Made by a program: the position numbers and the translations under genes. 64,000 nucleotides of DNA from Sphingomonas sp. SCN 67-18 (GTDB taxonomy: Bacteria > Pseudomonadota > Alphaproteobacteria > Sphingomonadales > Sphingomonadaceae): contig NZ_MEFG01000020.1 in NCBI RefSeq assembly GCF_001724715.1, forward strand, positions 1-64,000, written 5' to 3'. Below, one piece after another: positions 20,380 to 32,078 of this stretch (position 1 is its first letter; each line of letters begins with the position of its first letter). The notes beneath the pieces are model-generated. The model made no database searches and was not told the DNA's origin. It worked only from the letters and a program-made list of their open reading frames with translations.

Positions 20380-21894
20380 CTAATAGGGCCGGGCGACATC
20401 GAAGGCGACGGTGAGGCGGTGGCCGCGCGCGAACGGGCGTGTGCCATGCCACATCCAGGATGGGAAAAGCACCAGCCGACCCGGGCGAGGCTCGATGATC
20501 CGCGTCGCCGGCAGGTCGAGGCCGAGCGCCGCCTGCGGTTCGTTGAGGGTCAACCAGCCCGCATCCGCCGGTTCGTCCGCCGCGCGATCCGGCAAGGCCA
20601 GATAGAGCGCCGAACTGATCCAGCCTTGCGGGTGGACATGATTGGCATGATGGCCGCTGCCGGAAAGACGGACGGACCAGCTGCCGGAAAAACGGATGCG
20701 GCGGTCCCGGCTCGCGGACAGCAGGGGATGGACGGGATCAGGCGCCGGTAAAGCCCGGACATGCGCCCCCACCGCCTGGACGACAGCGCTCCGCAGCGCC
20801 CGGATCGTCGGGTCGATGCGACTGAGCAGGGGGCCGTCCGTCTGGGTACCGCCACGCACGGACTGGTCCAGATAGGTGCCGGCAGTGCGATGCAGCCGGT
20901 CGAGCGTCGCCGCGACCTCAGCGAGCGGGGGAAGCAAGGGCGCGATATCGACCACGCTCACCATGGCGGGATCGCCCACCAGCCACGACAGACGGGGATC
21001 GCCCGTCATCCGCCAGGCAAGCGCGGCATAGGGCCAGGCGGCCGTGGCGCGGTGACCGCCCGCACCGATCTCCCGGTCAATCAGCACCTCTGCTGCGGCG
21101 GGCCGGCCGGTCCGCAAAAGATGGCGCACCTCCCATATCGCCAGCTGGTGGCGACTGTCGGGCGGCAAGGCATCCAGCAGCGCGTCGGCGCGCATGCCCT
21201 CCCCCGTCTCGATGGCGGCGATCGCCCGATAGTCGGCGAGGTCTGCCGCCATTATTCCCGCCTTGCCGGCGCGGTCGATGCTGACGACCAACGCCGGATA
21301 ATCCTCACGCCGGACATGCAGGTCGAACAGCGCCCGCCACAAGGCCGGCTTCCCGGCCTGTTGCCCGATGGCCCGCTCCAAAGAGGCGGCCACATCCTTC
21401 TTCCCCATCAGCGCCCGCAACTGGGCGAGCTGGCTATGCCCCTGTTGCCAAAGGGGGACCTGTTCGAGGATTCGGTCCAGTTCCGCCTCGGCTTCATCGC
21501 CCTTCCCGGCCGCCCAGCGGGCCCCGGCAAGGCCGATCAGCACATCTCCGTTGGGAGGGCCGAGCCGGCTTGCCGCCTCGAACAGGGAAACCGCATCCAG
21601 CCCCGCCTCGAACGCCACCCGCGCCCGGCCATGGGCGATACCCGCATTCTCCGGCGCCAGCCGGGCGGCCTGCGCAAAGGCGTCAAGCGCCGCGCCATGC
21701 TCGTCAAGCGCGCGCCACAGCAGCGCCGCCCACTGCCAGAGGATGGGCGCCACCGTCTGCCGTGCTGCCGCCATGAGATGGGGCAGGGCCGCATCCTCCT
21801 CGCCCTCCTTCAGGGCGAGTTCGGCAAGATCGCACAGTCCGTCGATATCGCTTCCCAGCCGTCTGACATCCTCCAGCCGGGCCGCGAACGTCAT
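20380..21894 (-). CDS. TPR protein with C-terminal 2OG-Fe(II) oxygenase domain
   Basis: 504 residues. About the first 300 are TPR-like helix pairs (for example AGIAHGRARVAFEAGLDAVSLF). The C-terminal 100 residues match the putative 2OG-Fe(II) oxygenase family: H419/H421 in NHVHPQGW, then LYLALP, PGRLVLFPSWMWHG with H483, and R493 in the 2-oxoglutarate-binding HRLTVAFDV. The substrate is unknown; TPRs suggest a protein or peptide. Its ATG overlaps the stop of the Asp-hydroxylase gene (ATGA), and it is the last gene of the three-gene operon. It is cytoplasmic, with no signal peptide. Confidence 0.8.
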   Translation of the reverse strand: MTFAARLEDVRRLGSDIDGLCDLAELALKEGEEDAALPHLMAAARQTVAPILWQWAALLWRALDEHGAALDAFAQAARLAPENAGIAHGRARVAFEAGLDAVSLFEAASRLGPPNGDVLIGLAGARWAAGKGDEAEAELDRILEQVPLWQQGHSQLAQLRALMGKKDVAASLERAIGQQAGKPALWRALFDLHVRREDYPALVVSIDRAGKAGIMAADLADYRAIAAIETGEGMRADALLDALPPDSRHQLAIWEVRHLLRTGRPAAAEVLIDREIGAGGHRATAAWPYAALAWRMTGDPRLSWLVGDPAMVSVVDIAPLLPPLAEVAATLDRLHRTAGTYLDQSVRGGTQTDGPLLSRIDPTIRALRSAVVQAVGAHVRALPAPDPVHPLLSASRDRRIRFSGSWSVRLSGSGHHANHVHPQGWISSALYLALPDRAADEPADAGWLTLNEPQAALGLDLPATRIIEPRPGRLVLFPSWMWHGTRPFARGHRLTVAFDVARPY

Positions 21895-23051
21895 GGCGCG
21901 GCCGGCGCGTTCGCCGCATCGCTGCCGATCAATGCGGCCACCGCTTCACGCTCGATCTCGCTCAGGTCCGGGTGCCAGAGATCGAAGATCAGGACGACGC
22001 GAAGCCGATCGCTGGGGTTCATCGCCTCATGTTCGATGGTGTCGTCGAATACGAATGCCTCACCCCGCCGCCAATGCCGCGTTTCCGCGCCGACGCGAAA
22101 CCAGCAGCCCTCGGGAACGATCAGCGGCAGGTGGCAGACCAGGCGGGCATTGTTGACGCCGACATGCGGGGGAATGGCGGTTCCCGGCGCGAGCAGCGAG
22201 AACATCGCATTGGGAGAAGCGCCGTTGATCCCCGGCTGCGGCACCAGATCGAGCAGGGCCAGCGTTCGCGGGCAATGCCGGACATTGGCCTCGACCGGGC
22301 GGCCATTGCGCAGCAGGTGGATGGCCGTCCAGTCCGGGTTGCGGTTCAGCGCCTGCCACTGCCGCAACGGCTGGTGCGCGGCATATTGGATATAAGGGAC
22401 CAGTTCCGCACGCTCGGCGGCCATCACCGCATCCAGTTCCGCCGCGATCGTCCCGGTTTCCGCCTCGATCGCCGCCAGCCAGGGGAACGGGCTGCGCGGG
22501 TGGAATTCGCGCTCCCGCAGGCCGGGAAAGCTGAAATGGGTGGGCTCGCTATGATAGGGCCGCGTGCGGCGCAGGGCGTTGCTGCGAAACCGGGCGATGC
22601 GCGCGCGCTCGTCCGCGCTGGCGCGCTGCTCCGCATCCGCCATGCCAGCCGCCCACCGGGCCTCCCGTGCGTCCAGCCAGGCGGCGTGACGGCGCTCGCC
22701 CTCGGCCAGCACCTGAAGAATCTGGGGCGGCAGCGGATCTTCAGGCCGCTGGGCGATGGCATGGCCCCACGCCTCGCCCGCGCTCGGTTCGCCAAGCCGG
22801 TCGAGCAGGCTGGCACGCAGCAACAGCGCGGTGAAATCGAGCGGTGCGATCGCAAGGGCGCGGTGCACCGCCTCCAGCGCCGCACGGGGCTGGCCGGCGG
22901 CGCGGCAGATGCCGGCGAGCTTCATCAGGATGGCCGCGTCGTCCGGACCGGCGCGCGCCGCCTCGTCCAGCAGTTTCGCCGCCTGACCGAAATCATGAGA
23001 CGCCGCGGCCCGGTCCGCTTCCGCGAGCAATGCGGGCCGCGACGCCGTCAC
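21891..23051 (-). CDS. TPR protein with Asp/Asn beta-hydroxylase-like domain
   Basis: 386 residues. Residues 1-110 are TPR-like (AAKLLDEAARAGPDDAAILMKLAGICRAAGQPRAAL). The C-terminal domain is the aspartyl/asparaginyl beta-hydroxylase cupin: H296 in IPPHVG, R303 and H307 in NNARLVCHLPL, then GEAFVFDDTIEHEA with H341, and DRLRVVLIFDLWHP. This fold uses Fe(II) and 2-oxoglutarate. Peptide hydroxylation is the family's known chemistry; the target here is unknown. It overlaps both neighbours by 4 bases. Confidence 0.85.
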   Translation of the reverse strand: MTASRPALLAEADRAAASHDFGQAAKLLDEAARAGPDDAAILMKLAGICRAAGQPRAALEAVHRALAIAPLDFTALLLRASLLDRLGEPSAGEAWGHAIAQRPEDPLPPQILQVLAEGERRHAAWLDAREARWAAGMADAEQRASADERARIARFRSNALRRTRPYHSEPTHFSFPGLREREFHPRSPFPWLAAIEAETGTIAAELDAVMAAERAELVPYIQYAAHQPLRQWQALNRNPDWTAIHLLRNGRPVEANVRHCPRTLALLDLVPQPGINGASPNAMFSLLAPGTAIPPHVGVNNARLVCHLPLIVPEGCWFRVGAETRHWRRGEAFVFDDTIEHEAMNPSDRLRVVLIFDLWHPDLSEIEREAVAALIGSDAANAPAAP

Positions 23052-25069
23052 AGGCTGTAGCCGAATTTCTCAACCCATGGCTGCAGGGTTGGCAGGATCG
23101 GTTCGAGATGACGGCGATAGCGTTCCCACCGGCCCGCCGCGCGCTTGTAGATCGGCTCGACGACCTGAGCATAGCTGGCCGTGGTGATCAGCCCCCGCGC
23201 CTTTGCGGTGGCGCGATGATCGAGCGCCGCATCGTGCCAGTCCAGCCCCAGGAAATCGAACAGCGGCCGCACCTCCGCCTCCACATCCTCGATCAGCCGC
23301 TCATAGACGATGGTGTGGACGTTGAGCGGGAAAAGCGCGCGCGCCCGCTCCCAATGCTGGAAGGTCAGGTCGTAAAAGGCCGCCGCGTCCTCCAGCCGGA
23401 GAAAATTCGACATCGCATCGTTAAGCCGAAAATTGCTCATGAAGCAGCTGAGCAGCACGTCGCACGGATGGCGGAGCGCGAGGATGAACCGCGCATTCGG
23501 AAAGAGCCGCTGGATCAGCACCGCCTTGCTCAGGAACAGCGGCGATTTGTCGACCAGCATCTTCGTCTCGTCGAAGGGCGCGGGGGCAACCCTGGCGATC
23601 TCCTCGAAATAATGGGCGCGCGCGTCCGCCACGCCGGCGGCATCAAGCGCCGGCAAGGCAGCCGTACCGCCGATCCGCTTGTCGACATGGTTGAGCGGCG
23701 GCTGCTCCTCCAGCACGAGCGTGCCGGGATGGCCCATCAGGATGGTGTCGAGCAGGGTGGTGCCGGATCGGGGAAAGCCGATCAGGAATACCGGATCGGC
23801 GCGATCTTCCGCGGCTGGAACGGCAGGCCAGCTGGCCGCCCAGTCCCGCGTCATCAGCGACAGGTCGGCGCTGAGCCGGTCGCGAAGCGTGGCGGCCCGT
23901 TCCAGCGGCCGGGTCGGCGACGCGGCATGGAGCTGATTGGTAGCAGTGAACGCCGCGAACGCCTCGTCGGGGTGCCCCAGCCGGTCGAGCACCAGCCCGC
24001 GCAGATGCAGGGTCCGTTCCGGTTCCACCGCCTCCGGCACCCGCGCGAGGCAGGCCAGCGCTTCCTCATAGCGCTTGGCGCGCCGGTGTTCGAACGCGCG
24101 AATGAAGGCCAGCGGGCCCTCGTCAATGCCATTGGCCTCGGCCAGGGCGATCAGCGGCGCAAATTCATCTTCGCGATTGGCATGTTCATATTGGACGGCG
24201 AGGCCGAGATAGGCATCGGTCATCGCCGGATCGCCCGCGATCGCCCGGCGGAAAGCCTGCTCGGCGTCAGCGACGCGATTGACCAGCCCGCATTCGATGC
24301 CGAATTTGAGCTGGAGATTGGCGTTGTCCGGGTCCCGCAGGATCGCCTGCTCAAGCGCCGGCATCGCCTCGTCGTGTCGCCCCTCCTTCTTGTACTGGAC
24401 GTACAGTTCATGGAGCGCGCGGGCGTCCTCGGGGAACGTCTCCGCCGTCTCGCGCAGCACCGCCTCCGCCTCATCCGCCCTGCCGACGGATCGCATCGCC
24501 ACCGCCAGGTTGAGGCGTGTCGGCGGTGCGAGAGGATTCAGCGCCGCCGCCTTTTCCAACGCCTCGACACTGCCCTGCAAATCACCCGTGGCGGACCGGG
24601 CATTGCCCAGATTGTTCAAGCTCTCGAAATCGTCCGGCGCGCGGCTGACGACATGCTCATAAGCCTGGACGGCATCGTCGAACCGTTCCAGCGACTGGGC
24701 GAGGAAACCGCGATAGCGCGCGATGCGAAGCGAAGGATCCGCAAGGGCGCGGTCCAGCCCGGCGACATCGAGCGCAGCGGCAAGATCGCCCTTGTCGATC
24801 AGCACCGCGATCAGATTGCAGGCGATGGTCGCGTCGTCCGGCCGCCGCTCATGGGCCGCCGCGAGATGCCGGGCCGCACCGTCAAAGTCATTCTGGCGGG
24901 CCAGCACCATGCCCAGAAATGCATTGAGCGCCACCGCATCGCCGCCGGCGGCCAGAGCCGCCTGAGCCACTGTCCGCGCGCGGGCGATATCACCGACCTG
25001 TACGGCGGCGACGGCCTGCTTCAACGCATCGGCGGTTCGGGTATCGAGCATGGACGCTGCCGCCATCAC
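23048..25069 (-). CDS. TPR-sulfotransferase fusion protein
   Basis: 673 residues. Residues 1-380 carry about nine TPRs (clear examples: SLNNLGNARSATGDLQGSVEALEKAAALNP and NANLQLKFGIECGLV). The C-terminal domain is a PAPS-dependent sulfotransferase: 5'-phosphosulfate loop FLIGFPRSGTTLLDTIL near 428-444, and the 3'-phosphate-binding ILALRHPCDVLLSCFMSNF near 526. This type is related to tyrosylprotein sulfotransferases, so a protein or peptide acceptor is plausible. The gene is 63 bases downstream of a strong terminator that separates it from the TonB receptor. It is the first gene of the triad. Confidence 0.88.
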   Translation of the reverse strand: MMAAASMLDTRTADALKQAVAAVQVGDIARARTVAQAALAAGGDAVALNAFLGMVLARQNDFDGAARHLAAAHERRPDDATIACNLIAVLIDKGDLAAALDVAGLDRALADPSLRIARYRGFLAQSLERFDDAVQAYEHVVSRAPDDFESLNNLGNARSATGDLQGSVEALEKAAALNPLAPPTRLNLAVAMRSVGRADEAEAVLRETAETFPEDARALHELYVQYKKEGRHDEAMPALEQAILRDPDNANLQLKFGIECGLVNRVADAEQAFRRAIAGDPAMTDAYLGLAVQYEHANREDEFAPLIALAEANGIDEGPLAFIRAFEHRRAKRYEEALACLARVPEAVEPERTLHLRGLVLDRLGHPDEAFAAFTATNQLHAASPTRPLERAATLRDRLSADLSLMTRDWAASWPAVPAAEDRADPVFLIGFPRSGTTLLDTILMGHPGTLVLEEQPPLNHVDKRIGGTAALPALDAAGVADARAHYFEEIARVAPAPFDETKMLVDKSPLFLSKAVLIQRLFPNARFILALRHPCDVLLSCFMSNFRLNDAMSNFLRLEDAAAFYDLTFQHWERARALFPLNVHTIVYERLIEDVEAEVRPLFDFLGLDWHDAALDHRATAKARGLITTASYAQVVEPIYKRAAGRWERYRRHLEPILPTLQPWVEKFGYSL

Positions 25070-25131: not shown

Positions 25132-25161
25132 GGGGCGGCTGGTCGTGAAACCAGCCGCCCC
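25132..25161 (-). terminator. Strong Rho-independent terminator after the TonB receptor gene
   Basis: A 12-base perfect stem (GGGGCGGCTGGT and ACCAGCCGCCCC) with a six-base loop, followed on the minus strand by TTTTTTGTC. It ends the receptor transcript 22 bases past its stop. The TPR triad downstream therefore depends on read-through or on its own promoter in 25070-25131. Confidence 0.85.
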
Positions 25162-25182: not shown

Positions 25183-28100
25183 TTAGAAGTCCAGCGTGAC
25201 AGACGCGTAGATGTACCGACCCAGCGCGTCATAGGTCGCCGGATAGGTGTTGCCGTTGCACGGACCGGTCGGGCACAGGTTAGAGCCGTCACGGATCGCG
25301 CTGCCGGAAGTAACCAGCGGCGGCTGCTTGTCGAGGATGTTATTCGCGCCCAGGCGGAAGGTGTAGTGATCACCGATCGACACCGTGGTCGCCAGGTCGA
25401 AATAGCTCTGCGCCTTGATGTGCAGGCCCGGGTTGAAGTTGAAATCACCGTGCAGCGACTGGCTGTCGTCCAGCGTTTCCGCCGAAACCTTGCCGATATA
25501 GCGCCACTGCAGCGAGAGCCCGATACCGTTCGACATCTGGAACGACGTGCGCATCTTGTGCCGCCACTTCGGCAGCATCGCGCCGCCCGCCGTGGTGCCG
25601 CCCGCGCTGCAGACCGGGCCATAATAACCGGCGCAGTCATACACTTCGGTGATGCCGTTGTTGACCTGATACTTGTCCAGATAAGTACCGATGAAGCTGA
25701 GCGACAGCGTGCCGGCATCGCCGATCGGCCGGCTGTACGCGCTGTTCACTTCGATACCCTTGGTGCGGACCTGGCCCTGGTTGGTCGGGATATTGTCGAC
25801 ATAACCGCCCGGGGTCAGCCAGAGCGAGCCGGCGGCATCGCGATGGATGAGGCCGCACGACACCGGCGTGACGGTCGCCGTGGCATTGAGCACGCAGTCC
25901 TTCAGGATCGCATCCTGGGCCGGCGGCTGAATGGCGTCCTTCAGCTTGATATCGAAATAATCGACCGTCAGCGAGAAGCGCGGCAGGAAGCTCGGCTGAA
26001 GCACGATGCCCACCGTCTTCGTCGTCGCCTTTTCCGGCGTCAGGTCCGGGTTGCCGCCGATCAGGCCGTTATACTGACCAGCCGGGTTGGCCGTCGTGCC
26101 CTGGCCGACCGTGAAGCCCTGGGCAAGGCAGCCATAGTTGGTCGCGGTGATCGGCGCGCCGGCGCACGGATCGCTGGCCCCGTTGAGGCCGACCGTCGGC
26201 GTTGCGAACAGCTCCTGGATGTTCGGGGCGCGAACCGCCCGGTTGTACGAACCGCGCAGGCGGATGTCGCGGATCGGCGCGAATTCCAGAGCCAGCTTAT
26301 AGGTATCGGTATCATATTTCCGATCCGCGCTGGTCTTGTAGGAAGACCGACGATAGCCGCCGCTGAAGGTCAGGTCATAGAAGAAGCTGTCCTGAACCAG
26401 CGGAACCCGGGTTTCACCGAAGAACTCGTAAACCCGGAAGTTGCCGGACAGCGGCAACGTCGCACCGCCCTGGCCGGTCAGGTCACCCGTCTGGAAGGCG
26501 TTGTCGGTCTTGAGTTCCAGCGATTCCTTGCGCCATTCGAAGCCGAAGTTGACGGCGACTCCGTCCTCCGCCCAGGGCGTCTTGAAACCATATTCGCCAA
26601 GCCTGCCGGTGAACGAAGCGTTGGCCACCTGTTCGGATGTGTGCCCCTTCTGGAAGCCCGTCGCCGAGAGATAGGCGATCTGCTCCGGAGTCACGGCGCC
26701 CGCGCCGCCAAAGACGTTGAACGGCACGCAGCTCGGATCGCTGCCGTCGATGACCGAGCGGCAGACGACCTGACCGAAGGTGGCGCTGCCGGGCCGGTCA
26801 TCGGTGAACGCGTTCAGCGCACGGGTCAGACGGGCGACCGAGAACTCGTTCGAATAGACCTGCGAATAGTTCGACCGGCCGTACTGATAATAGGCGTCAT
26901 AGGTCCAGGCATTGCCCAGATTGCCCTTGCTGCCGAACACCGAACGGAAGTTGGTGTGCTGCAGATCGGAAAGGCGCGGGCCGCCCTCCACGTTGCGACG
27001 CAGCAGCTGCATGAAGCCCTGCTGGTACACATTGCCCTGCGAATCGACGAAATCGATCGGCGGAGCAGCAGGATTCGGATTATATCCGGCGGCAACCGCG
27101 GTCGGGAACGTGCCGATATAGCCGTTGATCAGGTTCGGCGCCGCGCAGATGACATCATGCTGCGCACCCGACATCAGCGGGTTGTCGCAGTTGATCGTCA
27201 GCGTGTTGCCGAAGTCGCCGGACGGCGCGATCTGGGCGACCGTGCGGTCGTCCATGAACATGAACTCGAGATACGGCTTGATCGAATCGTTGATCTCGTA
27301 ATTCGCGAACAGACCGGCGGTATAGCGCTCGTCCGGGCGCTGATAATGGTTGGTCGGCGCGAAATTGTACCGCGTCGTGGTGTTCTCGAAACCGCCACCG
27401 GGCAGGAAGGTGTAAACCGTCGAAGACGCGGTGTTGAGCGTGGGATCGAAAACGATGGCCGTACCCGACGAGTTGGTGAGCGAACCGCCGCAATTCGGCG
27501 CGCCGCCGCCGGTGTTCTGCACCACGCAGGCGCTGTAGTCGCGCTTGGACTGGAGCACCGCATTGGCCTTGCGATAGCCGGCATAGGCGACGATGTGGCC
27601 GCGGCCATCGTCGAACGCCGCGCCGAACGCCGCAGTCACGTCAACCGTGCCGCCGTCCGTCACATTGCCGTCCGGATAGCCGAATCCGCGCGCATCGAGC
27701 AGCGCCGGCGTCAGCTTGTTGCGGTTGTTGTGCTGGAAGAAGCTGTACTGGCCATCCACGCGGAAGCCCGTGAAGTCCGTATCGAGCTTGAAGTTGACAA
27801 CGCCGGACACGGCGTCGGCGCCGTATGTCGACGAGGCGCCGCCGGTCAGCACTTCGACCGACTTCAGCAGGGCGGCCGGGATCATGTTGATGTCGGCGGC
27901 CGAACCGCCGGTGGGGCTGGGATCGCCCGGCAGCAGACGGCGGCCGTTGACCAGCGCCAGCGTGCGCGTGGTGCCGAGGCCGCGAAGGTCGACCGATGCC
28001 GTGCCGTCCGCGCCGTTGGCGAGGGTCGAGGCCTGGCTGGCATAGACCGACGGCAGCGAGTTGAGCATGTCCTCAACCTTGGTCGTGCCCTGCAGCTTGA

Positions 28101-28308: not shown

Positions 28309-28544
28309 AAAAAGTCCCCTTCTGGGCAAGCGCCTCATCGCTGTTTTCAATGCGACATTTTCGCTCAATCGAACGTCCCATCGCGTTCGCTATGGCCGCG
28401 ATCTATGGTATCTGGCGCGCGATTGGCAATCATGCGTGACAGGTTGGATGCGATATACCAAGTCTCTGTCTCCCAATTGTCACACCCCCTTTGCCGTCGG
28501 AATTCCGGCGCGGATCGAACGGGCGAAAGAGATTAGGAGTTGAA

Positions 28545-29072
28545 ATGAGATCGAAATATCACGCTTCGCTGATCGCTCTCGGCAGCCTTGTCCTCCTGCC
28601 GGCGGCGGCGCACGGGCAAGACCGCGCATCAACCCACATCGATGCACTTGGCCAATGCCGGGCCCTGTCGGACAGTGTTGCCCGGGCCGCCTGCTACGAT
28701 CGAGCCTATGATGCGTTAATCGCGGCGCGCGACAGGAAAGAAGTGATGATCGTCGACCGCGAAGCCGTTCGCGAAGCCCGGCGGGGGCTGTTTGGCCTGA
28801 ACCTGCCTTCGCTCAAGCTGTTCGGCGGAAAGGACGGCGGTGACGAAGAAGAAGTCAGCGAAATCGAATCAACGATAAGAAGCGCGACGTCCGGCTCCGG
28901 CGGAGAATGGATCATCACGCTGGTGGACGGCGCCCGCTGGCGACAGATCGACGACAAATTCCTGATGCCGCCGAAGCAGGGACAAAGCATCAACATTCGC
29001 AAGGGCACGTTCGGCGCCTACATCGCCAGGGTCAACGGCAAGAACGGAATCAAGGTCGTCCGGCTGAACTGA
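28545..29072 (+). CDS. Secreted hypothetical protein between two TonB receptors
   Basis: 175 residues. Signal peptide of about 23 residues (LIALGSLVLLPAAAHG|Q). A Cys pair lies in LGQCRALSDSVARAACYDRAYDAL, then a charged middle with a GGDEEEVSEIE stretch, and a beta-rich C-terminus (GGEWIITLVDGARWRQ, then GTFGAYIARVNGKNGIKVVRL). I recognise no named family; such proteins are annotated hypothetical in sphingomonads. It is divergent from one receptor and convergent on the other. ATG at 28545 has AGGAGT upstream. Confidence 0.75.
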   Translation: MRSKYHASLIALGSLVLLPAAAHGQDRASTHIDALGQCRALSDSVARAACYDRAYDALIAARDRKEVMIVDREAVREARRGLFGLNLPSLKLFGGKDGGDEEEVSEIESTIRSATSGSGGEWIITLVDGARWRQIDDKFLMPPKQGQSINIRKGTFGAYIARVNGKNGIKVVRLN

Positions 29073-29180: not shown

Positions 29181-32078
29181 TCAGAAGCGCACCTGCGCTC
29201 CGACATAGAGGCGACGACCGAACGGATCATACACGTCCGCCGCGGTTTCCGTCCCGGTCGGAGATCCAGTGAACGGCGTTCCCGGAAGGAAGGGAGGCCG
29301 GCTCTGGAACAGGTTGTCCACACCAATATAGAGGGCGAAACGACGATCTTCACCGATGTCGTAACGCAGCTGGATGTCATGATACCAGCGGTCGCCCACA
29401 CTGTTCAGCGGGGCGGCATCCGGATCGTCGATCAGATCCAGATCGCCGATAACCTTGCTGAGGTAGGTGACCTGCCAGCTCGCCGTGAACCCATCCAGTA
29501 TATAGGCCGCGCGAGCGGTGCCCTTATGCTCGGAAAGTCCCACGGTGCCGGCAAAATCACGAACCGGGGCCGACGGGTTGGCCTGGTTCTTGAAGTTGAT
29601 CAGATAGGTATAGTTGCCCGTCAAATCCAGCCGATCATTGCCGAACAGGCCGAGACCGCGTGAATAACGCATCCCGAAATCGATACCCTTGGTACGCAAG
29701 GTCGAAATGTTGATCAGCTGATCGTTAACCGTCGTCACGAAACCCGTGTTGGCATTACGGATGACGTTATCGCAGAAATCATCCAGCCCGGTCAAAAGGC
29801 ACTGTTCGATCGAAAGATTACGACCAACGGTGCCGATTGCCTTGTCAACCTTGATATCGAAATAGTCGATGGTCAGGCTGAATCCGGGCAGTTGCTGCGG
29901 CGTGATGACCGCACCCAGGGTGATCGTCTTCGCGGTTTCTTCGCTCAGATTGGGATTGCCGCCAACGAAGCCGTTAATACCCTGAATATCGGCCAGGGTA
30001 TATTCGAACTCGCCATTGTTGGTGATCGCGTTCGCGATCCCGGGAATGGCGCGACATGCCGTATCGATGGCTGCATCACGTCCGGTTTGAGGGCCCGCAG
30101 TGACGCCGTCGCACGGATCATTGACCCCCGCGAAGGTTTCCGACGGAGCGGACGCGAATTCCGAGATGTTCGGAGCACGGTTCGCCTCGGCATAGACGCC
30201 ACGCAGACGCAGCCCGCTGACGGGCTCCCATTCCGCACCCGCGTTCCAGCTGAACACGCCGCCGACGGTGCCCTGGCTGTAGTCGGAATAGCGCGCGGCG
30301 CCGGTCAGCCCGAAATAATTGAAGAAGGGCTTGTCCCGCAGCAACGGCACATTCACTTCGCCAAAAGCTTCCCAGACATGGAACTGACCCACGGTATCGG
30401 GAATCTGGTTGCCGGAGTTGCCGCCCGTGTTGGTCAGAATGTCGAGATCGTCGACGCTCTTTTCCTTGCGGTATTCACCGCCGATGGCGACGCCCAGGTC
30501 GCCGGCCGGCAGAGTGATCAGGCTACCTTGAAGGCTGGCCGAAACCACGTGCTGTTCGTTGGTGATGCTCTCCGATTTCGGCACCACGGCGCGGACATAG
30601 GCCGAAGCTTCCGGGCTGGCCGTGCCGAAGCCGAAGAGGTTGATCGGCTGGCAGCCCTCGGCAACCGCCGCTTCGCTGCGGCAAACGATCGTGCCATCGG
30701 GCAGTTCGATCGAGTCGAGCGCATTGCGGTAGCGGGCGTTGTCGATATCTTCGCTCGAAGTCCGGTCCTTGAAGTGACCGTAGACGTAGCTGACTTCGTA
30801 GCTCCACTTGTTGGTCACATCGCCGCGCAGACCCGTCGCAACCCGCCACGTGTCACGCGCATTGTTGTTGGACCTGTCGAACACCTCGTTCTGACGACGC
30901 CGGAAACCGAGCGACGTAATCGGATTCGCGATGCCGGCCGGCGTCAGATTATAGGCGTCGACCTGATCGCGAACCGCCTGAGGCAGGAACGCGTTGGTGA
31001 TCGGGATACCGATATTTCCCGGGCTCTGATCATAAATGTCGGTATTCGCCAGAGCCAGCGGCTCGATCTGCGAGCTTGAGCGAACCCGGGCATAGGTCAC
31101 TTCGGCAAAGGCGCGAATGTGATCGTTGACCTCGTAATTGAAGATGCCGCTGGCGAGATAACGCTCGATCGGAGTGGAAATCCTGCGCACCGCATTTCTG
31201 TTGAAGCCGGCGCCACCACCCGCAATCACGTTATTGTTCGTGTCGAACGAGAACAGGCTACCGCCGTTGAATCCATTGACGGCGGCGCCATCGGCGTCGA
31301 ACAGCTGGAACCGACCCTGGGGAGAGAAGGAGCTGTAGGCCGCCGGACCGCAAAGGTCATAAAAGCAGTCCTGGCTCGAAATCGCCCGCTTCCGCGAAAG
31401 CAAGCCGGTATCCTTGTCGTAAGAGAAGTTACCGATGAAGGACCCTCTATCGTCGGAGCCGAAGGTGGTCCCAGCCGTCAAGCTTGCGAAATAGCGCGGG
31501 TTATCTCCGTTGTCGGTGATGTTGTACTGCGCCCGGGCCTGAATGCCGTCAAATTTATCCTTGAGGATGAAATTGACCACGCCCGCGATCGCGTCGGAAC
31601 CGTAAACGGCGGACGCGCCGCCCGTCACGACTTCAACGCGGTCGATGAAATCGGTCGGAATGTTGTTGAGGTCGACCGACGACGATCCGGCCAGACCGGC
31701 GATGAACCTACGGCCGTTGACGAGAACCAGCGTTCGATCGGATGCGAGGTTGCGCAGGTTGACGGTCGCCACGCCGTTCCCCGACGTGAGAAAGTTCGTG
31801 TTCGTGCGGCTGCTGCCAATGCCGACCTGCGGAAGTTCCTGAAGAACATCCTGCACGTTGACGGCCGCATCCCGCTGAAGTTCTACCGAACCGACGACAG
31901 CAATCGGGGTAATCGACTCCAAATCGGGGCGCGCAATACGCGATCCGGTAACAACAATCGTCTCATCTTCATCCTGAGGAGCCGGCGCAGCATTCTGTGC
32001 AAGCGCGGGCATTGCGAGTACGGCCGAACTTATTATCAGCGTTGTTGCCAATAGTCGCTGGCGTAGCAAATTTTTCAT
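29181..32078 (-). CDS. TonB-dependent outer-membrane receptor
   Basis: 965 residues. Signal peptide to about residue 27 (VLAMPALA|Q), TonB-box-like DETIVVTGSRIARPDLE, plug with VNVQDVLQELPQVG, LVNGRRFIAG and VEVVTGGASAVYGSDAIAGVVNF, and a C-terminal barrel ending YVGAQVRF. It is a diverged homologue of the receptor at 25183-28308 (same plug layout, FDIKVDKAIG against FDIKLKDAIQ near the barrel end). Substrate unknown. The long gap upstream (32079-32456) probably holds its promoter. Confidence 0.95.
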   Translation of the reverse strand: MKNLLRQRLLATTLIISSAVLAMPALAQNAAPAPQDEDETIVVTGSRIARPDLESITPIAVVGSVELQRDAAVNVQDVLQELPQVGIGSSRTNTNFLTSGNGVATVNLRNLASDRTLVLVNGRRFIAGLAGSSSVDLNNIPTDFIDRVEVVTGGASAVYGSDAIAGVVNFILKDKFDGIQARAQYNITDNGDNPRYFASLTAGTTFGSDDRGSFIGNFSYDKDTGLLSRKRAISSQDCFYDLCGPAAYSSFSPQGRFQLFDADGAAVNGFNGGSLFSFDTNNNVIAGGGAGFNRNAVRRISTPIERYLASGIFNYEVNDHIRAFAEVTYARVRSSSQIEPLALANTDIYDQSPGNIGIPITNAFLPQAVRDQVDAYNLTPAGIANPITSLGFRRRQNEVFDRSNNNARDTWRVATGLRGDVTNKWSYEVSYVYGHFKDRTSSEDIDNARYRNALDSIELPDGTIVCRSEAAVAEGCQPINLFGFGTASPEASAYVRAVVPKSESITNEQHVVSASLQGSLITLPAGDLGVAIGGEYRKEKSVDDLDILTNTGGNSGNQIPDTVGQFHVWEAFGEVNVPLLRDKPFFNYFGLTGAARYSDYSQGTVGGVFSWNAGAEWEPVSGLRLRGVYAEANRAPNISEFASAPSETFAGVNDPCDGVTAGPQTGRDAAIDTACRAIPGIANAITNNGEFEYTLADIQGINGFVGGNPNLSEETAKTITLGAVITPQQLPGFSLTIDYFDIKVDKAIGTVGRNLSIEQCLLTGLDDFCDNVIRNANTGFVTTVNDQLINISTLRTKGIDFGMRYSRGLGLFGNDRLDLTGNYTYLINFKNQANPSAPVRDFAGTVGLSEHKGTARAAYILDGFTASWQVTYLSKVIGDLDLIDDPDAAPLNSVGDRWYHDIQLRYDIGEDRRFALYIGVDNLFQSRPPFLPGTPFTGSPTGTETAADVYDPFGRRLYVGAQVRF

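Follow-up and report, generated by a model that had tools for sequence, protein, structure and literature searches.

A TonB-dependent receptor gene with three TPR-fused modifying enzyme genes in Sphingomonas sp. SCN 67-18 suggests that bacteria modify their own surface receptors or exported partners

We analysed a stretch of 64,000 nucleotides from Sphingomonas sp. SCN 67-18 (contig NZ_MEFG01000020.1, positions 1 to 64,000; hereafter the window), in which a TonB-dependent receptor gene, T1, is followed by three genes for enzymes that carry tetratricopeptide repeats (TPR): a sulfotransferase (S), an aspartyl/asparaginyl beta-hydroxylase (H) and a 2-oxoglutarate (2OG)-Fe(II) oxygenase (O). The order on the minus strand is T1, a gap of 113 bp, S, H and O (Table 1). 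An earlier note on this DNA had described the three enzyme genes as co-directional and overlapping by ATGA. They do lie on one strand with a 4-bp overlap at each junction, and the H/O overlap is ATGA, but with GTG as the listed start of H, that of S and H reads GTGA. The gene E, on the opposite strand, separates T1 from a second TonB receptor gene, T2, and a convergent clpB gene has its stop about 50 bp from that of O. The association of the enzyme trio with a Cys-rich TonB receptor suggests that bacteria modify their own surface receptors or exported partners. Among the loci studied, the closest relatives are those of Sphingopyxis, with 80% identity in T1 and 83% in H.

Table 1. Genes and other features of the receptor-enzyme locus (positions in the window).
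Feature	Position	Strand	Remarks
S	25069-23048	minus	673 aa; TPR array and TPST-like sulfotransferase domain at 23231-23794
H	23051-21891	minus	386 aa; TPR and aspartyl/asparaginyl beta-hydroxylase domain at 21969-22460
O	21894-20380	minus	504 aa; TPR and PF13759 2OG-Fe(II) oxygenase domain at 20398-20682
T1, TonB-dependent receptor	28368-25183	minus	likely true start ATG 28308, then Sec-type signal peptide (by eye)
T1 stretch with seven Cys pairs	25258..27528	minus	
Terminator-type hairpin between T1 and S	25132..25161	minus	13 pairs, then TTTTTT
E, small exported protein, divergent from T1	28491..29072	plus	likely start ATG 28545; 193 aa
T2, second TonB receptor	29181..32078	minus	35% identity to T1; separate transcription unit

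Pfam searches revealed many TPR matches and a Sulfotransfer_3 domain (PF13469, 1.9e-32) in S, weak TPR matches (best 5.6e-6) and an Asp_Arg_Hydrox domain (PF05118, 2.2e-44) in H, and TPR (2.3e-11) with a 2OG-FeII_Oxy_5 domain (PF13759, 2.4e-20) in O. Over the whole source genome, PF05118 and PF13759 have one match each and PF13469 has three. In H, which was aligned to human AspH, the residues H296, R303, H307, H341 and R351 are invariant in 32 aligned rows, and the alignment of relatives shows that H keeps the two iron histidines of the AspH family. The residues H419, H421, H483 and R493 of O, also invariant in 32 aligned rows, make up an HxH...H...R set, which we take to be the iron and 2OG ligands. 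In S, aligned to TPST2, G431, R434, S435, G436, T438, E455, K508 and R533 are invariant and S541 nearly so (28 aligned rows); apart from K508, these residues presumably belong to the 3′-phosphoadenosine 5′-phosphosulfate (PAPS) loop, the catalytic Glu and the 3′-phosphate-binding region. These matches and invariant residues agree with the earlier description of the three proteins as TPR-fused modifying enzymes with intact catalytic sites.

The nearest solved relative of H is human AspH (1e-25), and that of the S domain is protein-tyrosine sulfotransferase 2 (TPST2, 7e-14), a member of the family to which the earlier note had likened the sulfotransferase. The nearest solved structures to the TPR array of S are designed TPRs and O-GlcNAc transferase. 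Judged by their sequences, H is predicted to be an Asp/Asn beta-hydroxylase that acts on protein, and S is a putative protein Tyr sulfotransferase. The AlphaFold model of H, whose predicted local distance difference test score (pLDDT) is 93.6, aligns with the human AspH structure 6yyy over 377 columns spanning TPR and oxygenase (E 1e-17). The whole-chain TM-score is just 0.48, with a root-mean-square deviation of 14, and in the model the two modules are set at a different angle than in human AspH. No signal peptide was seen on S, H or O by eye, no predictor having been run, and the three enzymes are probably located in the cytoplasm.

Variants of these enzymes were also observed. Two open frames of about 875 aa contain two AspH domains each (G090:C40:35659-37389 and G036:C256:1975-3474), and on the contig of the former there are also O and S matches. 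A stand-alone small 2OG-Fe(II) oxygenase (PF13640) is present in four H loci (L078:11109-11771, L013, L017 and L076) and is perhaps an extra member of the kit. In two complete genomes (L037 and L058) the H and O frames are broken into pieces, as is the receptor of L037; these are perhaps decaying clusters or sequence errors.

T1 has a PF07715 plug and a PF00593 barrel by Pfam. Its model (pLDDT 79.6) contains 22 barrel strands, counted from the secondary structure, and the best match in a fold search was PfeA. T1 contains seven Cys pairs, 281/293, 394/408, 536/547, 735/747, 825/838, 912/920 and 1032/1037, and from the strand alternation of the model all seven would be placed in extracellular loops. 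Five of the pairs are near-invariant, being found in 80-82 of 82 T1-like receptors; of the same 82, Cys 394 is present in 71, Cys 408 in 57 and the pair 1032/1037 in 38. The median Cys count of T1-like receptors is 14. T1 itself has 15, the highest number in the 29 receptor open reading frame (ORF) records of its genome, some of which are partial or repeated. T2 failed as a negative control: of 13 loci with T2 relatives, its own among them, 5 have O or H nearby. Possibly T2 is a further client of S, H and O.

A search for H relatives gave at least 557 matches, of which the best 80 loci were studied, and our main count was restricted to the 57 with a full 6.5 kb of context. In these, a TonB receptor was found within 6.5 kb of H in 51, S in 37, O in 35 and all three partners in 31. 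The remaining six had no receptor, S or O, one of them (L061) having a receptor just past 6.5 kb. Without the context cut, a receptor matching the T profile was found within 6.5 kb in 66 of the 80 loci. The order and strand of the genes vary (T-S-H-O, T-H-O-S, divergent H, H-H pairs). The enzymes and the receptor recur together in Sphingomonadales, and the view of them as one group, put forward in the earlier note, has withstood the genomic comparison. H and a receptor also occur together outside the order, in Caulobacteraceae, Nitrospirillum, Oxalobacteraceae and Nevskia. Other recurrent neighbours, namely xseA, purD, clpB, an M23 peptidase and an ATP-binding cassette (ABC) transporter, were considered as members of the kit and rejected, as they look like shared chromosomal surroundings.

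So as not to select through H, 118 Sphingomonadales genomes were also searched with T1 at E 1e-150 or better. This gave 17 loci in 16 genomes, own included, and 14 of the 17 lie near one or more of the three enzyme genes; ten of these were read from fetched stretches or the window and four from the coordinates of T1 and H matches. The enzyme sets beside 82 T1-like receptors are HOS at 38, H at 14, HS at 11, HO at 8, OS at 5, O at 3 and none at 3, H being over-represented because most of these loci were found through it. On a FastTree tree of the 82 receptors, presence beside the receptor changes 7 times for H, 8 times for S and 13 times for O. Neighbouring H, S and O genes have thus been gained or lost repeatedly within a single receptor clade, and the grouping of receptor and enzymes is more than chance.

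S and O were further sampled on their own. For S, 20 TPR-sulfotransferases were taken, about every third of the first ~65 rows with the best scores first, skipping sites near a contig start, and about 6 kb on either side was read. For O, we took the first 20 TPR-type matches with long open frames, after passing over four because a contig began close by or they had been encountered before; of the four, two sit in receptor loci. Controls were 20 stretches at fixed positions of ten large contigs. A receptor was present in the stretch of 19 of the 20 S genes, one such receptor being cut at the edge, and the stretch of the single S gene without one is shortened by a contig end. The corresponding numbers were 14 of 20 for O and 7 of 20 for the controls, one of which (L226) proved to be, by accident, the T1 locus of genome G094. 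By Fisher's test the S excess is clear both without L226 (19/20 vs 6/19, p=4e-5) and with it (p=1e-4). For O the association taken alone is borderline, since p=0.026 without L226 becomes p=0.056 once it is counted. A long receptor ORF is present at 18 of the S loci; 16 of these have a gap of at most 300 bp between receptor and S, and at 14 the two genes share a strand. At least 99 of the 118 Sphingomonadales genomes have a PF13469 match, and in the source genome all three PF13469 genes adjoin a receptor; the two outside the present locus (L152:8840-13091 and L153:3-2973) adjoin receptors of other classes.

In relatives (L005-L083), 51 of 52 junctions between a receptor and an enzyme gene have a hairpin like the terminator-type one between T1 and S, mostly 20-40 nt past the receptor stop. 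With a stricter stem of 10 pairs, a hairpin was found behind 76 of 88 receptors, but behind only 1/59 S, 2/90 H and 1/50 O genes and in 5/400 random segments. A promoter scan of the region gave chance level only, and the enzyme genes could conceivably be served by a separate weak promoter rather than by read-through.

The earlier note had also supposed a secreted partner of the receptor, and such proteins do exist: E in the window, and at H loci the families of E and of a second kind of small exported protein, SP. This raises the alternative that the client is E or SP, a small exported Cys-bracketed protein, which once modified would be bound or imported by the receptor, alone or in a complex. 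Several findings speak for it. Of the 80 H loci, 63 have a T1-like receptor, and all 46 H loci with a relative of E belong to these 63. Relatives are also present at 6 of 11 T1 loci and 6 of 20 O loci, but at none of the 20 S loci; a single control of the 20 has one, namely the accidental T1 locus. Of 54 E copies, 41 are divergently upstream of T1 at a median distance of 175 bp. The family has a conserved C-x11-C-x-D, with the two Cys, D70, W150 and R191 in 63-64 of 64 rows; E has no Pfam match, and NCBIfam gave only weak hits below cut-off, e.g. VasI for one relative. SP, which has an invariant C...G...C...W pattern and no Pfam match, was the third group of a small-ORF search of the loci, whose largest group (71 loci) was rejected as a chain of low-complexity shadow ORFs. 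It is often at the cluster end in relatives (e.g. L010:12656-13051 and L013:5469-5723) and was found at 38/80 H and 4/11 T1 loci, at none of the 20 S or 20 O loci, and in the same one of the 20 controls as E. Of the 118 genomes, 28 contain SP, with 47 matches in total; judged by coordinates, 14 of the 47 have a match to T1, H or O within ~6 kb.

Some points count against E or SP as client. The two profiles derive in part from loci at which the families were later counted, both families are missing from the general S loci, and in an order-wide sample of 27 TPR-type H genes, chosen by hand from the matches, E is present at 6 loci and SP at 5. For 26 of the remaining 33 SP matches the surroundings were read, in 20 stretches; H, S and O are absent from all of these, and two contain a receptor. 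SP is also absent from the window locus, where the stops of O and clpB are ~50 bp apart, while the Sphingopyxis relatives L005, L007 and L010 carry it behind O. The sole copy of the source genome is distant (L233:9666-10007, contig C27), with no receptor or enzyme near. We regard an exported client as rather unlikely, but as the main rival to the receptor.

Alternatively, the enzymes could modify a peptide or small metabolite that is secreted and comes back through T1, along the lines of lasso-peptide systems that have tailoring enzymes. A table of Pontixanthobacter gene clusters in PMC10040529 gives lasso B2, sulfotransferase, aspartyl beta-hydroxylase and a second sulfotransferase close cluster numbers, from which we infer that the clusters are adjacent. 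In genome G005, a short PF05118 match is 87 bp from a lasso B2 match (G005:C1:2788729-2789603), and judging from these neighbours relatives of H may tailor lasso peptides. However, lasso B2 (PF13471) was not found in the source genome at E 1e-5, the recurring transport and peptidase families are rarer (M23 peptidase at 11 and ABC transporter protein at 7 of 80 loci), and the TPR arrays point to protein substrates. No lasso genes were found among 20 neighbour proteins of L041, L046, L061 and L072, four of the six full-context H loci without a receptor in range, the set of L061 including the TonB receptor just past 6.5 kb. A returning product is, in our view, quite improbable. The suggestion that the substrate is a peptide imported through the receptor was likewise not supported, because such a peptide reaches the periplasm and the enzymes are without a signal peptide visible by eye.

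We tentatively favour, at somewhat less than an even chance, the receptor itself as client: S, H and O would be cytoplasmic enzymes, guided by their TPRs, and would act on Cys-bracketed loops of the T1 precursor before it is exported. Until Sec export the unfolded precursor would be bound by the TPR arrays. H would add a beta-hydroxyl to Asp or Asn, the hydroxylation of some other residue would fall to O, and S would transfer sulfate to a hydroxyl group, most likely that of Tyr. The modified Cys-bracketed segments would become disulfide-stapled surface loops, which might adjust ligand binding or shield the receptor against phages and bacteriocins. By passing little transcription, the hairpin after T1 would give catalytic amounts of enzyme for an abundant receptor. 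Once complete, the receptor would have E as an exported partner, joined by SP at loci that encode it. The precursor is ranked first because it is the most constant partner, around which the enzymes are exchanged, because the architecture of the enzymes fits protein substrates, and because Cys-bracketed loops are the type of segment on which human AspH works. According to PMC6817910, the TPR of human AspH is needed for the hydroxylation of epidermal growth factor (EGF)-like domains, and the substrate loop is disulfide-bridged. The wider proposal, in which a swappable cytoplasmic TPR enzyme kit decorates a disulfide-rich class of TonB receptors before export, the hairpin sets the receptor-to-enzyme ratio, and E and SP are partners or further clients, is one that we put forward more tentatively still.

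A number of observations weigh against the receptor as client. In the order-wide sample, 14 of the 27 H genes have no receptor within 6.5 kb and 13 have one. The receptor-less genes (L144, L146-L148, L150, L151, L154, L155, L158, L161, L163, L167, L168 and L170) adjoin unrelated genes, as annotation of 20 neighbour proteins indicated, with uvrD-type helicases in three loci (L154, L158 and L168). This is what would be expected if the enzymes acted on assorted cytoplasmic proteins and the link to the receptor were regulatory or accidental. We think this very unlikely, since the association survives rearrangement and is seen separately for S (19/20).

Other points concern the receptors, their partners and the hairpin. 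Three of the 17 T1 loci (G013 twice, and G024) have no enzyme nearby, and their receptors still hold 11 of 14 Cys positions. A point in favour of the receptor as client is that, among receptors that are not T1-like, the median is 8 Cys when H or O is within 4 kb (n=35) vs 4 otherwise (n=48; p=2e-8), although this contrast was computed without ancestry correction. E and SP are found at nearly as many loci as S and O, which makes them rival clients. In a tree-aware run for S and H, in which ancestry was controlled, none of the receptor columns with Tyr, Asp or Asn was found to track S or H (79 and 310 column tests), a test of little power because only 8 and 7 independent pairs were available; the strong hits of a plain Fisher test were rejected as confounded by ancestry. 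The EGF-type motif of AspH substrates, CX[DN]X4[FY]XC, is not enriched, being present in 6 of 82 T1-like receptors and in none of 51 SP proteins. Disulfides are normally not formed in the cytoplasm, yet human AspH takes disulfide-bonded substrates. A terminator scan of the region was not above chance in number (3 sites vs 5.5 in shuffles), so that the number of such sites is uninformative by itself. Hairpins also trail receptors with no enzyme behind them, for which reason we only infer an attenuator role.

Each of the enzyme families has known members. TPST1 and TPST2 are the nearest solved relatives of the S domain, which keeps their PAPS-loop residues and, where EE aligns, has a Glu; they are Golgi enzymes without a TPR array, and S differs in its long N-terminal array. 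RaxST of Xanthomonas is a bacterial TPST-like enzyme that sulfates an exported peptide, RaxX; to our knowledge this system has no TPR, no hydroxylases and no TonB receptor partner. The genes of the 2OG oxygenases PiuC and YbiX adjoin siderophore TonB receptor genes, but as far as we know they belong to another Pfam family and have neither TPR nor S or H. H resembles human AspH in its TPR and oxygenase architecture, its two-His iron site and further active-site residues. Human AspH (PMC6817910) is an endoplasmic reticulum membrane protein that acts on EGF-like domains, whereas H has no anchor or signal peptide that we could see, has receptor neighbours, and its loci show no enrichment of the EGF motif. 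In open-licence papers, screened by title and the opening of the abstract, we found no description of receptor-linked sulfotransferases or AspH enzymes, and the receptor-linked kit appears to be undescribed there. A parallel with halogenases beside TonB receptors was considered and dropped, as it had no support in that literature, the word TonB being absent from the halogenase paper PMC5945002.

If the proposal is true, bacteria sulfate and hydroxylate their own outer-membrane receptors or exported partners of these, modifications that are known mainly from animal secretory proteins. This would give a reason for the abundance of such sulfotransferase genes in Sphingomonadales, so often by TonB receptors, and would bear on the ligand range of these receptors and on escape from phages and bacteriocins. 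Bacterial AspH- and TPST-like enzymes that have no assigned role would also gain clients that are defined and can be tested.

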